Source of the DNA: Verrucomicrobiota bacterium
Lineage (GTDB): Bacteria; Verrucomicrobiota; Verrucomicrobiia; Limisphaerales; UBA9464
Direction of reading: 5' to 3'
Length of the DNA stretch: 64,000 nt
Assembly (NCBI GenBank): GCA_017309115.1
Contig: JAFLEF010000028.1
Location: forward strand, 32,849-96,848
The notes beneath the pieces were generated by a model. It did no database searches, was not told where the DNA came from, and was given only the letters and a program-made list of their open reading frames with translations. Positions 532-22,958 of the stretch are shown here, in pieces. Position 1 is the stretch's first letter. Each line of letters begins with the position of its first letter. The position numbers and the translations under genes were made by a program.

Positions 532-1200
532 CTGAGAGCTGAGTGCTGAGAGCTGAGAGGTCGGAAAGGAAAAGATGGTAGGGCGACGCTCTGCGGAGCC
601 GTCCGTGTGTGGACTGGTGACGCGTGAATTCGCTGCGGCGCTTAGGAAGGCGCGAAGCGTTTGGACTGCGCCAACCCTCTGGCGCTTTGGGCGCGTAACT
701 GGCGGGTGAGGTTGTCGATGCACTGACGCGTCAGCAGCCGTGGCGAAAAGCGGTAGCTCGCTGCGCTCCGCGACCGCAGTCCAAGACGCTTCGCGAGGGC
801 GACGCGGGTGGGGAAACAGGACCGACAGGGTGTATGGCGCGAACGGCTCGGCGGAGCCTCGCCCCACCGGGGGAAAGCTGAGAGCTGAGAGCTGAGAGGT
901 CGGAAGGTAGGGCGACGCTCTGCGGAGCCGTCCGTGTGTGGACTGGTGACGCGTGAATTCGCTGCGGCGCTTAGGAAGGCGCGAAGCGTTTGGACTGCGC
1001 CAACCCTCTGGCGCTTTGGGCGCGTAACTGGCGGGTGAGGTTGTCGATGCACTGACGCGTCAGCAGCCGTGGCGAAAAGCGGTAGCTCGCTGCGCTCCGC
1101 GACCGCAGTCCAAGACGCTTCGCGAGGGCGACGCGGGTGGGGAAACAGGACCGACAGGGTGTATGGCGCGAACGGCTCGGTGGAACCTCGCCCTACCGGC
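532..1200. repeat. Gap filled by a duplicated composite of repeat families A and C
   Basis: No gene is seen here. After a short run of GAGAGCT-like heptamers (532-566) come two direct copies of about 329 bp (578-906 and 907-1200). Each copy begins with the family A left arm (GTAGGGCGACGCTCTGCGGA) and ends with its right arm (GGCTCGGYGGARCCTCGCCC). Family C is nested inside at about 651-799 and 980-1128, with arms GCGAAGCGTTTGGACTGCG and CGCAGTCCAAGACGCTTCGC. The copies are almost identical, so the duplication is probably recent. The long reading frames over this region are translations of the repeats. Confidence 0.8.
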
Positions 1201-11547: not shown

Positions 11548-13557
<2,010 letters not shown>

Positions 13558-13560
13558 GGA

Positions 13561-14105
13561 AAAGCTGAGAGCTGAGAGCTGAGAGCTGAGAGGTCGGAAG
13601 GAAAAACCGGTAGGGCGACGCTTTGCGGAGCCGTGCGTGTGTGGACTGGTGACGCGGGAATTTGCGGTGACGCGAACGGCTCGGGCGGAGCCTCGCCCCA
13701 CCGGGGCGGAAGGCTGCGGTTGATAGGGCGACGCTCTGCGGAGCCGTGCGTGTGTGGACTGGTGACGCGGCAATTTGCTACGCTTTGCGGAGCCGTGCGT
13801 GGGTGGACTGGTGACGTGGGAATTCGCTGCGACGTGAACGGCTCGGACGGAGCCTCGCCCCACCGGGGCGGAGGGCTACGGTCGGTAGGGCGACGCTCTG
13901 CGGAGCCGTGCGTGGGTGGACTGGTGACGCGGTAATTCGCTGCGACGCGAACGGCTCGGGCGGAGCCTCGCCCCACCGGGGCGGGAGGCTACGGTTGGTA
14001 GGGCGACGCTCTGCGGAGCCGTGCGTGTGTGGACTGGTGACGCGGCAATTCGCTGCGACGCGAACGGCTCGGGCGGAGCCTCGCCCCACCGGGGTGGGAG
14101 GGTGA
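13561..14105. repeat. REPIN-like tandem array, left of the RAYT gene (family A, about five units)
   Basis: After heptamers (13561-13594), family A units start at 13609, 13722, about 13780 (lacking its first bases), 13884 and 13997, with a spacing of about 113 bp. Each unit has a left arm with GTAG or a GATAG variant, then GGCGACGCTCTGCGGAGC. A spacer of about 45 bp follows, then the inverted right arm CGGCTCGGGCGGAGCCTCGC with CCCACC. The second unit is broken after GCAATTTGCTA and joins directly to the middle of the third left arm, which looks like a deletion between units. Confidence 0.85.
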
Positions 14106-14108
14106 GGC

Positions 14109-14576
14109 TCACCACCCTACTTCCGGGAATACATCTCCTTGATAGGGCCAGGCTGAACGCTCTGTGACCAGTCCGGCTCGGACCGGGTTCTCCAGTACGT
14201 AACGCCATTTCTGACCGTGTTGTTCGTGATTGCGCAGTCGGTGGTGAAAGACGCCTGACTGCCACTGCCAATCGGCATGTCCATGTCTCTTGCGGAAATC
14301 ACTCTTCCAGTACCGGACCCAGCTTTCCACGGAACGGTTTGGATGATGTGCAGCCGCGAGGCAATGGAGGTGGTCGGGCATCAGAACATATCGTCCCACC
14401 AGCCAGTCGGTCGCCTGCGCCCAGGTGGATCGGAGGAGCTCATGAGCTTCTTCACAGGCAAGCCATTGGCGACGGGCCCGAGTGCAGATGGTCAACAGAA
14501 GTAGCGTGGGTTCACCCGTTCTCGTTAGTACGACTGGGTTCGGCCGCTCTCGCGAAGGGAAGAATGGATCAGCCAT
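14109..14576 (-). CDS. REP-associated tyrosine transposase (RAYT, Y1_Tnp/TnpA-REP)
   Basis: A 155-residue single-domain HUH nuclease. The paired metal-binding histidines are in VLMPDHLHCLAAAH (His69, His71). The likely catalytic tyrosine is Tyr126 in WRYVLENPVRAGLV. Between them are SWVRYWKSDFRKRHGHADW and WQSGVFHHRLRNHEQHG, also family-typical. RAYTs bind and cleave single-stranded REP hairpins and are thought to spread them. This gene sits between two arrays of family A units, which strongly suggests they are its substrates. The ATG at 14576 was chosen over the longer open frame, whose start is repeat sequence. No nonsense or frameshift change is seen. Confidence 0.92.
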   Translation of the reverse strand: MADPFFPSRERPNPVVLTRTGEPTLLLLTICTRARRQWLACEEAHELLRSTWAQATDWLVGRYVLMPDHLHCLAAAHHPNRSVESWVRYWKSDFRKRHGHADWQWQSGVFHHRLRNHEQHGQKWRYVLENPVRAGLVTERSAWPYQGDVFPEVGW

Positions 14577-14657
14577 CGGCTCATTATGGCGCAACGGATC
14601 TGCACCGTTATCCCTAAATGTATGGAGCAGGCACTCAGGCTTCGCAGACCTCTCTTG

Positions 14658-15440
14658 GGTAGGGCGACGCTCTGCGGGGTCGTACGTGGGTGGACGGATG
14701 ACGCAGGAATTCGCCGGGGCGCGAACGGCTCGGGCGGAGCCTCGCCCCACCGGGGCGGAAGGCTGCGGTTGGTAGGGCGACGCTCCGCGGAGCCGTGCGT
14801 GTGTGGACTGGTGACGCGGGAATTCGCTGCGACGCGAACGGCTCGGTGGAACCTCGCCCCACCGGGGTGGGAGAGGCTACGGTTGGTAGGGCGACGCTCC
14901 GCGGAGCCGTGCGTGTGTGGACTGGTGACGCGGGAATTCGCTGCGACGCGAACGGCTCGGGCGAAGCCTCGCCCCACCGGGGTGGGAAAGGCTACGGTTG
15001 GAAGGGCGACGCTCCGCGGAGCCGTGCGTGGGTGGACTGGTGACGCGGGAATTTGCTGCGACGCGAACGGCTCGGGTGGAACCTCGCCCCACCGGGGTGG
15101 GAGAGGATGCGGTTGGTAGGGCGACGCTCTGCGGAGCCGTGCGTGTGTGGACTGGTGACGCGGGAATTTGCTGCGACGCGAACGGCTCGGGCGGAGCCTC
15201 GCCCCACCGGGGTGGGAGAGGCTGCGGTTGGTAGGGCGACGCTCTGCGGAGCCGTACGTGGGTGGACGGGTGACGTGGGAATTTGCTGCGACGCGAACGG
15301 CTCGGGCGGAGCCTCGCCCCACCGGGGTGGGAGAGGCTGCGGTTGGTAGGGCGACGCTCTGCGGAGCCGTACGTGGGTGGACGGGTGACGTGGGAATTTG
15401 CTGCGACGCGAACGGCTCGGGTGGAACCTCGCCCCACCGG
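14658..15440. repeat. REPIN-like tandem array, right of the RAYT gene (family A, seven units)
   Basis: Seven head-to-tail units start at 14658, 14771, 14885, 15000, 15115, 15230 and 15345, with periods of 113, 114 and then 115 bp. The left arm holds a GTAG tetranucleotide followed by a hairpin centred on GCTCCGCGGAGC or GCTCTGCGGAGC. The right arm is an inverted relative. The spacer (GTGTGTGGACTGGTGACGCG then GGAATTCGCTGCGACGCG) is also nearly constant, so the whole unit was amplified rather than just the arms. The last unit ends 20 bp before the stop of the amide hydrolase gene. Confidence 0.88.
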
Positions 15441-15460: not shown

Positions 15461-16552
15461 TCAGGGATTGAGCGACTTGATGACCTCGTTCCCTTTCATC
15501 GAGATCTTCGTGATCGCGGTCGCATCGAGGGGCATTTTCATGAGGTCCACGGAACGGATCTGACTGTTCTCGTAAGTCCGGAAATAGAACCGCCGGGCCT
15601 GGGAGTTAATGGCGCTGGTCCAGAGCGTGTAGTCGGCTGTGACATTGCCCTTCGCGTCCTTCTCGGCATCCCGGGCGGCGCCCTTCGGAATGTCGAAGTT
15701 GTTCAGAATGTGAAACGCTTGGAGGATGGCCTCCTCGCCAGTGGCGGAAGGAAACACCGAGGTGCTGTAAGCGACAGCGCGGACAAAGCGGGACGGCGGC
15801 GTGAAGTCGCCGGGCAATCCCAACATACCGGTGCCCTGACCAAACCCGACCAGCGTCACGCTGCCCACCTTGACCGGCGGACGGTTCACCATCGAAAAGT
15901 TCACATAGTTGCGCAGATTGGTCATGTGCCAGTCGTAGGTCGGGGAATTGGTCATCACCCCCAGCGGGTTGTCATGCACGTGGAGTTTTCCATCGACGTA
16001 CTCGATGACGATGCTGGTGCCGGTCTCGTCCTGGACGACGTAGTGGGCCGGGGGGGTGAATCCCCAGGCCGGAAAGACCACGTCGGCCACGACCACATCG
16101 GCGATGTTCTGCCGCACTTCCTGAACCGTGGCGAAGTTCTCCAAGATCCAAGAGCCAAGTTCCCATGGCGCCAAGGTGCGGTCGGCCTTGGCTGGATCGA
16201 ATTTCTCGTAGCCGGCAGACGTGGGGAAGTAGAACAGCCCGACGGTCATGCCCTTTTCGTTCACCCCGTCAAAAATGAAGGGCAGGCCTACTCCATTGGC
16301 TCCCAGCGAGGCATACTTGGACTTCCATTTCAGGCCAGTGGCGCCCTGCGGGGTGGTGCCAGTCCGGGAGAAGTTACGGGGAATCATCAGAACCTCAGAC
16401 TCCAGATCGAGACCGAACTCCAGGGTGCGCGCGCGGATGACCGTGCCGTCTTGGGCGATCAGGCGGATTCCCGTGCAGGCTTCGGAGTCCGGAGCGAGCG
16501 GAAGGGACGTGGCGAGGGCAAGTGCAAGCAGCAGGCGGGACAGCGGTTTCAT
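15461..16552 (-). CDS. Secreted linear amide C-N hydrolase (choloylglycine hydrolase family)
   Basis: The 363-residue protein has a signal peptide (MKPLSRLLLALALATSLPL) ending just before Cys26. In this Ntn-hydrolase family (penicillin V acylase, bile salt hydrolase), cleavage exposes that cysteine as nucleophile. CTGIRLIAQDGTVIRARTLE is the classical N-terminal stretch, with Arg and Asp at expected spacing. Later landmarks are GLPFIFDGVNEKGMTVGLFY, GVMTNSPTYDWHMTNLRNY (Asn and Asp region) and SRFVRAVAY. Substrate could be a bile-salt-like conjugate, penicillin or an N-acyl homoserine lactone; it cannot be fixed from sequence. It is divergent from the prolyl oligopeptidase gene across 186 bp, which should contain both promoters. 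Confidence 0.9.
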   Translation of the reverse strand: MKPLSRLLLALALATSLPLAPDSEACTGIRLIAQDGTVIRARTLEFGLDLESEVLMIPRNFSRTGTTPQGATGLKWKSKYASLGANGVGLPFIFDGVNEKGMTVGLFYFPTSAGYEKFDPAKADRTLAPWELGSWILENFATVQEVRQNIADVVVADVVFPAWGFTPPAHYVVQDETGTSIVIEYVDGKLHVHDNPLGVMTNSPTYDWHMTNLRNYVNFSMVNRPPVKVGSVTLVGFGQGTGMLGLPGDFTPPSRFVRAVAYSTSVFPSATGEEAILQAFHILNNFDIPKGAARDAEKDAKGNVTADYTLWTSAINSQARRFYFRTYENSQIRSVDLMKMPLDATAITKISMKGNEVIKSLNP

Positions 16553-22395: not shown

Positions 22396-22958
22396 GGACC
22401 CGGTGGGGCGACGCTCCGCGGAGCCGTGTGTGTGGAGTGGTGACGCGGCGATTCGCCAAGCGGACCGGAAGGCGCGAAGCGTTTGGACTGCGCCAGCCCT
22501 CTGGCGCTTTGGGGCGCGTGAGGGGTGATTGCGGATTGTGGATGAACTGACGCGACAGCAGCCGTGACGAAAAGCGGTAGCTCGCTGCGCTCCGCGACCG
22601 CAGTCCAAGACGCTCCGCGCACCACTTCGCCGTCTCTCAACTCTCAACTTGGCTCCGGTAGGGCGACGCTCTGCGGAGCCGTGCGGGTGTGGAGTGGTGA
22701 CGTGGCAATTCGCCGAGACGCGAACGGCTCGGGCGGAGCCTCGCCCCACCGGGGGAAAGAGCTGAGAGCTGAGAGCTGAGAGCTGAGAGGTCGGAACGGG
22801 GAAGCGCGAGGCGGCAAGCGGTAAGGAAAGCGAAGCGTGGTAGGGCGACGCTCTGCGGAGCCGTGCGGGTGTGGAGTGGTGACGCGGCAATTCGCCGAGA
22901 CGCGAACGGCTCGGGCGGAGCCTCGCCCCACCGGGGGAATCAGCTGAGAGCTGAGATT
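22396..22958. repeat. Repeat-filled gap between the kinase and ppk1
   Basis: This gap holds a family A left arm at 22402 without its own right arm, followed by a nested family C element at about 22471-22620. Reverse heptamers lie at 22633-22650. Complete family A units are at 22657-22755 and 22839-22935, with GAGAGCT heptamers between them (22759-22795) and after them. There is no coding sequence. The last 60 bp before ppk1 are unique. Confidence 0.75.

Follow-up and report, generated by a model that had tools for sequence, protein, structure and literature searches.

How does a REP-associated tyrosine transposase (RAYT) gene come to lie between two tandem arrays of a REPIN, and do gene and repeat belong together? 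The question is raised by a stretch of 64,000 nucleotides, called the window here, which is part of contig C33 in the draft genome (7.53 Mb, 111 contigs) of a member of the Verrucomicrobiota. The RAYT-array block occupies positions 13609-15440, between an acetyl-CoA synthetase-like gene on its left (11548-13557, plus strand) and the gene of a CBAH-family hydrolase on its right (15461-16552, minus strand). A preliminary description of this DNA had placed five and seven repeat units around an intact Y1 transposase, and the coordinates of the block, the counts and the residues His69, His71 and Tyr126 were all borne out.

The RAYT gene and its repeat units

The RAYT gene (14109..14576, minus strand) encodes 155 amino acids from an ATG at 14576, its in-frame ORF remaining open up to 14750, and REPs lie on both sides of it. 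Like other Y1 transposases the protein has an HUH motif and one catalytic tyrosine, with HLH at 69-71 and Tyr126 as the tyrosine of WRYV. H69, H71 and Y126 are invariant in all 13 related sequences of set A1, the window RAYT among them; in the wider set A3 (29 sequences) this still holds for H71 and Y126, and H69 is nearly invariant. Sequence L110, which has a stop codon, was left out of A3, and L033, with an internal stop, was left out of A1 and of the tree described below. The window RAYT misses the cut-offs of the curated models: its sole NCBIfam match, REP_Tyr_transpos (NF047646), reaches 73.8 bits (E 1.3e-20) against a cut-off of 80, and the Pfam Y1_Tnp match is weak, at 18.7 bits against 23. 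The missed cut-off is a matter of score and not a biological feature. Since the NF047646 match has an E value of 1.3e-20 and the A1 profile matched only one distinct sequence in the PDB, TnpArep of entry 4er8 (E 1.7e-13), we still place the protein among the RAYT/TnpA_REP transposases.

The units, of 113-115 bp when full, are arranged head-to-tail in both halves of the array. The left array (13609..14107, plus strand), on the 3' side of the RAYT gene, holds five REPIN units starting at 13609, 13722, 13771, 13884 and 13997, and the right array (14658..15440, plus strand), on its 5' side, holds seven of 113-115 bp starting at 14658, 14771, 14885, 15000, 15115, 15230 and 15345, the last of them without a linker; the exact number of units is not certain, because the assembly is a draft in 111 contigs. 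Tandem Repeats Finder (TRF) reported a period of 113 at 13780-14102 and a period of 115, with 6.8 copies, at 14658-15440. One broken unit had been described on the left, which is correct for the truncated unit at 13722 (49 bp), but the unit at 13771 has lost its GTAG head as well. The GTAG that was said to precede the hairpin is retained in 9 of the 12 units; the copy first read as GATAG is ATAG (13722), the unit at 15000 has GAAG and that at 13771 has none. Nothing in the window matched Rfam at gathering thresholds, and a plasmid search with the array as query likewise returned no match.

A full unit consists of a REPIN of 92-94 bp followed by a linker of about 20 bp. In a typical 94-bp REPIN body (15115..15208, plus strand) the left arm (15115-15138) is followed by a spacer and an inverted right arm (15208-15184), and the linker (15209..15229, plus strand) is common to units on either side of the RAYT gene. 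The left arm, GGTAGGGCGACGCTCYGCGGAGCC, reads as a GGTAG foot followed by GGC-GA-CGC-loop-GCG-GA-GCC, a predicted fold with covariation in relatives; the inverted right arm opens GGTGGGGCGAGG. The inverted second hairpin of the preliminary description is thus present, but it starts with GGTGG and not GGTAG. Folding of the unit as single-stranded DNA, which had been proposed as a check, gave one long hairpin for the 94-nt REPIN (z -3.92), and none of 200 shuffled sequences did as well. Single arms fold no better than shuffles: the left arm alone is predicted to form two stems and a GA/GA loop at an ordinary energy (z -0.54), and the right arm of the window (z -0.94) favours a different fold.

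The anatomy of the arm was read from relatives: a GGTRG foot leads into an outer GGC/GCC stem, which a GA/GA internal loop separates from a covarying inner stem of 3 bp. At related RAYT loci the closing GAGC stood at the expected position in 54 of 63 arms, which carry 11 types of inner stem. Eight of the 11 types are fully paired (30 of 33 cells), compared with a mean of 17.4 paired cells for shuffled partners, of which 0 of 2000 sets reached 30. The arm therefore has the GTRG foot and short hairpin of a GTRG-type REP, and two such REPs, inverted at a fixed spacing within a long hairpin that also occurs dispersed, make up a REPIN. These arms offer a clean natural collection in which REP recognition by RAYTs can be studied, as foot and outer stem are invariant and the inner stem changes together with its partner strand. 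Another GTAG hairpin, GTAGGGTGGTGAGCCTCACC, lies over the stop codon of the RAYT gene (14092..14115, minus strand; fold z -1.97). It was considered as the true partner family and rejected, no second copy with up to 3 mismatches being present in the stretches searched.

A tract of the heptamer AGCTGAG (13563..13592, plus strand, reported by TRF) lies immediately to the left of the array, and (AG[CT]TGAG)n tracts also occur at 530-559 and 22758-22789 of the window. On contigs C1, C2, C33 and C90 such tracts lie within 50 bp of 24 of 52 REP clusters; random placement in roughly called noncoding DNA gave a mean of 4.4 and a maximum of 12. The tracts may reflect either a target preference or a composite element.

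Dispersal of the REP and its pairing with RAYTs

We refer to the repeat with the left arm GTRGGGCGACGCTCYGCGGAGCCG as family A. With up to 2 mismatches this arm has 454 copies in its own genome and 0-6 per genome in 50 other genomes of the family. A reversed control pattern had 0 matches in the same genome, so the count is not due to chance. Four contigs totalling 755,748 bases contain 134 arms, 78 of which form 39 inverted pairs 80-100 bp apart, where random placement of the arms (300 tries) gave a mean of 0.19 and a maximum of 3 pairs. The same placements produced clusters of up to 8 arms, and cluster size alone was left unused as proof. In the stretches searched, 33 of 34 strict REPIN matches measure 92-94 bp and 8 of the 34 lie inside the array. 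The genome holds 20 strict head-to-tail pairs, 6 at the window array and 14 at other loci. Dispersed high-copy REPs are thereby established for this genome.

Within the window, dispersed REPINs of the array type lie at 22657..22750 and 22839..22932 (both plus strand), and two tandem 329-bp composites opening with a family A left arm occupy 577..1197 (plus strand; TRF period 329, 1.9 copies), with arms at 577 and 906 (plus) and at 868 and 1197 (minus). These composites (577-1199) also contain GCGCGAAGCGTTTGGACTGCGCCAGCCCTCTGGCGC, a different repeat that surrounds the RAYT of contig C38 as well. Arm density is uneven across the genome, from 14 arms in 340 kb on C1, where positions 1-190000 have one weak match only, to 68 arms in 179 kb on C90. 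On contigs C9, C26, C31, C34 and C97 a family A arm lies no more than about 300 bp from the contig start, as if the repeats had broken the assembly there.

Evidence for pairing of the repeat with its RAYT came from related loci in named genomes. The tag GGTRGGGCGA lies within 400 bp of the RAYT at 22 of 80 such loci, on both sides at 16, compared with 2 of 80 in control stretches of the same loci. A RAYT tree was built from 125 sequences, of which 45 were left out (short, unmatched or identical) and 80 remained, 3 of them with flanks too short to label. The 77 labelled rows, of which 20 are tagged, require 4 changes of the tag, whereas 500 shuffles required at least 13 (mean 17.7). The supported six-member clade that includes the window RAYT is tagged throughout, and the nearest RAYTs, from other families of the order and other named genomes, share the tag of the window. 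Protein clades keep the tag over deep divergence. The RAYT with REPIN-like units of the preliminary description is upheld, and in relatives RAYT and tag occur together. At 23 of 57 untagged RAYTs a different hairpin, also headed by GTRG, is repeated on either side of the gene, compared with 2 of 92 controls.

Among 294 sampled genomes of the order, 53 have a RAYT of this clade (E<=1e-35), and 26 of these carry at least 20 arms of the wide pattern, compared with 20 of the other 241 (Fisher P 5.5e-11, uncorrected for phylogeny). Against pairing, fewer than 5 arms are present in 22 of the 53 genomes with such a RAYT, and at least 10 in 15 of 144 genomes in which A1 matched nothing at 1e-10. Eight of these 15 were searched with NF047646, and seven had some RAYT-like gene; the eighth, G054, has 28 wide-pattern arms and no RAYT-like match at E<=0.001. 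Abundance of the arm in genomes that lack a RAYT had been named beforehand as the observation that would speak against the pairing. Family A proper does not behave in this manner (454 copies as against 0-6), but wide arms are common in certain genomes whose RAYTs, if any, lie outside this clade. Genome G029 has 327 wide-pattern arms and 127 matches to GTRGGGCGAGGCTCYGCCGAGCCG (up to 2 mismatches), mostly GTGGGGCGAGACTCCGTCGAGCCG among the matches listed, and its RAYT is only distantly similar to that of the window (2.4e-24).

Cognate REPs that are abundant and coevolve with the protein are therefore found here, with exceptions in genomes that lack a RAYT of this clade and in arm-poor ones. Because the tag follows the tree (4 changes as against at least 13), the arm is dispersed in 454 copies and the inner stem covaries, the pairing of the RAYT with the family A REP is well supported at the level of sequence. 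The window RAYT probably recognises the hairpin repeats and helped to scatter them through the genome.

Origin of the tandem array

We next compared the units with each other and with the rest of the genome. For each of the 11 units compared the best match is another unit of the array, and the best dispersed match of all 11 is the REPIN at 22657 or that at 22839. The genome has 27 occurrences of the array-type spacer (up to 2 mismatches), of which 11 belong to the array and 16 lie outside; 7 of the latter are on the window contig, which makes up 1.3% of the genome, and some of these may be local duplicates. Outside the array the linker has only two matches, each with 4 mismatches, in 851,748 bases. 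As the units match each other best, the linker is confined to the array and kindred REPINs lie nearby, a REPIN with its flank appears to have been duplicated locally, and the comparisons speak for local growth of the array. The linker of the first unit on the right (14658) is identical to that of the leftmost unit (13609), so that the two halves form a single array, with the gene inside a linker. Units next to each other showed no significant excess of similarity over other pairs (P 0.12), which lends no support to simple duplication of neighbours.

The reading that we consider likely, and hold with good confidence, is that gene and repeat form a REPtron, in which the RAYT spreads the REPIN of its cognate REP family, and that the tandem array is a secondary, local duplication. 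By analogy with the E. coli enzyme, the RAYT would bind the REP hairpin as single-stranded DNA, with the GTRG foot and irregular stem as contacts, and Tyr126 would cut beside the hairpin, allowing the 92-94 bp REPIN to spread. The REPIN and about 20 bp of flank would then have been duplicated around the RAYT gene, which lies within a linker separating two units. Slippage, or unequal recombination involving the inverted and direct repeats, would have produced the duplication, and RAYT nicks may have initiated it. Local duplication neither needs nor excludes RAYT action.

Less likely, and suggested only tentatively, is that the RAYT itself built the array. The REPIN would be excised as a circle of single-stranded DNA, and head-to-tail units would arise next to the RAYT's own gene through rolling copying or repeated insertion. 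Array-type REPINs are indeed concentrated close to the gene, and other RAYTs have comparable surroundings. A second, unrelated RAYT of the same genome (contig C37; L008 1081-2373), from another subfamily, has 2.5 copies of a different, REPIN-like unit of 109 bp on one side and 3.2 on the other; the unit opens with GTAG and closes with CTAC, and copies abut at CTAC-GTAG junctions without a linker. The REP of this second RAYT has 78 copies at up to 3 mismatches. A RAYT of genome G047 (L029 815-2462) is flanked by 6.7 copies of a 97-bp unit on one side and 4.8 on the other. Of 65 related RAYTs, those of the 80 loci with 700 bp on either side, 10 have a TRF array no more than 1 kb away (2 of them on both sides), compared with 2 of 115 control stretches. 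A direct or inverted repeat spans the gene at 64 of 69 testable RAYT loci (L155, at a contig edge, not counted), and a direct repeat of at least 40 bp at 41 of them; pseudo-genes placed at the same loci gave direct repeats in 5 of 120 cases (at least 40 bp in 4) and inverted repeats in 2 of 120. Against construction by the RAYT, the amplified unit includes a linker that is absent from dispersed copies, as in duplications made by recombination, the 14 of 20 strict tandem pairs noted above are at other loci, and long arrays are a minority among related RAYTs. The E. coli enzyme TnpA_REP cleaves at CT, according to the portion of PMC8266576 that was available, and E. coli-like CT sites are not enriched upstream of these REPs: positions -1 to -12 contain one in 48 of 112 distinct dispersed arms, compared with 50-69 of 112 in five other 12-bp bins. 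A broader proposal, in which RAYTs of this group drive amplification of their own REPINs around their own gene, recurrently and independently, with the arrays seeding copies nearby and then genome-wide, seems unlikely to us. One genome with two unrelated RAYTs, each in an array of its own unit, makes the formation of REPIN arrays directly testable. The RAYT of contig C97 (L007 2001-2419) has a 141-bp tandem array of 3 copies downstream.

Two further explanations would detach the gene from the repeat. In the one, the array is an ordinary product of host slippage and recombination, and a RAYT not specific for family A landed in it or was caught between its units. The identical linkers at 14658 and 13609 would allow the gene to have entered a pre-existing array, and the nearest arms face inward at the window RAYT as against outward at 10 of the 20 tagged loci (inward 4, same direction 3, incomplete 3). 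We nevertheless regard this account as improbable, as the same tag recurs with the nearest RAYTs of other families and genomes and follows the tree, and a chance landing would not repeat. In the other, family A belongs to a different RAYT, such as that of contig C38 (L005), and the window RAYT is a passenger. With NF047646 the C38 protein scores highest, at 82.3 bits, and alone exceeds the cut-off, and family A-like arms lie 350 bp and about 680 bp from it on either side. These two arms carry 2 mismatches each, however, and the C38 RAYT is surrounded by a different repeat, a 144-bp unit with GCGCGAAGCGTTTGGACTGCGCC; P0001 has no match to it at E<=1e-5, and it is relatives of the window RAYT that carry the tag. 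A passenger role for the window RAYT is thus very improbable, and the REPtron with a locally duplicated REPIN remains the reading that we prefer.

Comparison with known systems

The preliminary description treated tandem amplification around a RAYT as unusual, a view that does not stand. In Pseudomonas fluorescens SBW25, as the available text of PMC3116915 reports, tandem clusters of REPINs, flanks included, lie beside each of three RAYTs, the largest reported comprising four REPINs and one REP. The window is similar in that a RAYT has its own REPIN family, with near-identical tandem REPINs by the gene and others dispersed, and the local duplication suggested above parallels the duplication of REPIN and flank in that genome. 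It differs in that 12 units enclose the gene on both sides and in having another REP sequence and another host group.

The REPtron of E. coli (TnpA_REP with y and z REPs), as far as it is described in the available parts of PMC8266576 and PMC6006769, has the same GTAG foot and irregular-stem hairpin and also places inverted REP pairs (three REPINs) by the gene; the A1 profile, in turn, matches structure entry 4er8. Unlike the E. coli REPs, those of the window owe their irregularity to a GA/GA loop between an invariant outer stem and a covarying inner stem of 3 bp, and their second foot is GTGG. The window RAYT does not fall into either of two TnpA_REP subclasses in the form in which those partial texts define them. 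Subclass 2.2 (Bertels group 2: DHLH, WE, YIHYNP and a long REP with a bulge) agrees in DHLH and in the irregular REP, but the window has WQ and YVLENP in place of WE and YIHYNP. Subclass 2.5 (Bertels group 3: DH[LF]H, WQ, YI[VI]ANP and a short perfect REP) agrees in DHLH and WQ, and assignment to it was dropped, as YVLENP and the internal loop of the window REP do not fit.

In gammaproteobacteria, according to the available text of PMC2817692, rayt genes have REPs on either side (a third of them in BIMEs), the REPs coevolve with the RAYTs, and in some genomes REPs accumulate close to the rayt gene. The two flanking REPs are always inverted in that account, whereas the nearest arms at the 20 tagged loci here are outward at 10, inward at 4, in the same direction at 3 and incomplete at 3. 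The phylum was thought to be little described in this respect. GTAG repeats have in fact been published for the verrucomicrobium Opitutus terrae, which the accessible part of PMC3733652 calls highly enriched in them; beyond that paper, we found nothing relevant on RAYTs or REPs in Verrucomicrobiota in the parts of the open-licence literature available. Compared by description, the GTAG repeats of O. terrae and others resemble those of the window in forming head-head dimers and tandem clusters. The placing of an array beside a RAYT is thus already known from other bacteria, and the locus described here combines it with a defined REP anatomy and a long array in a little-studied group.
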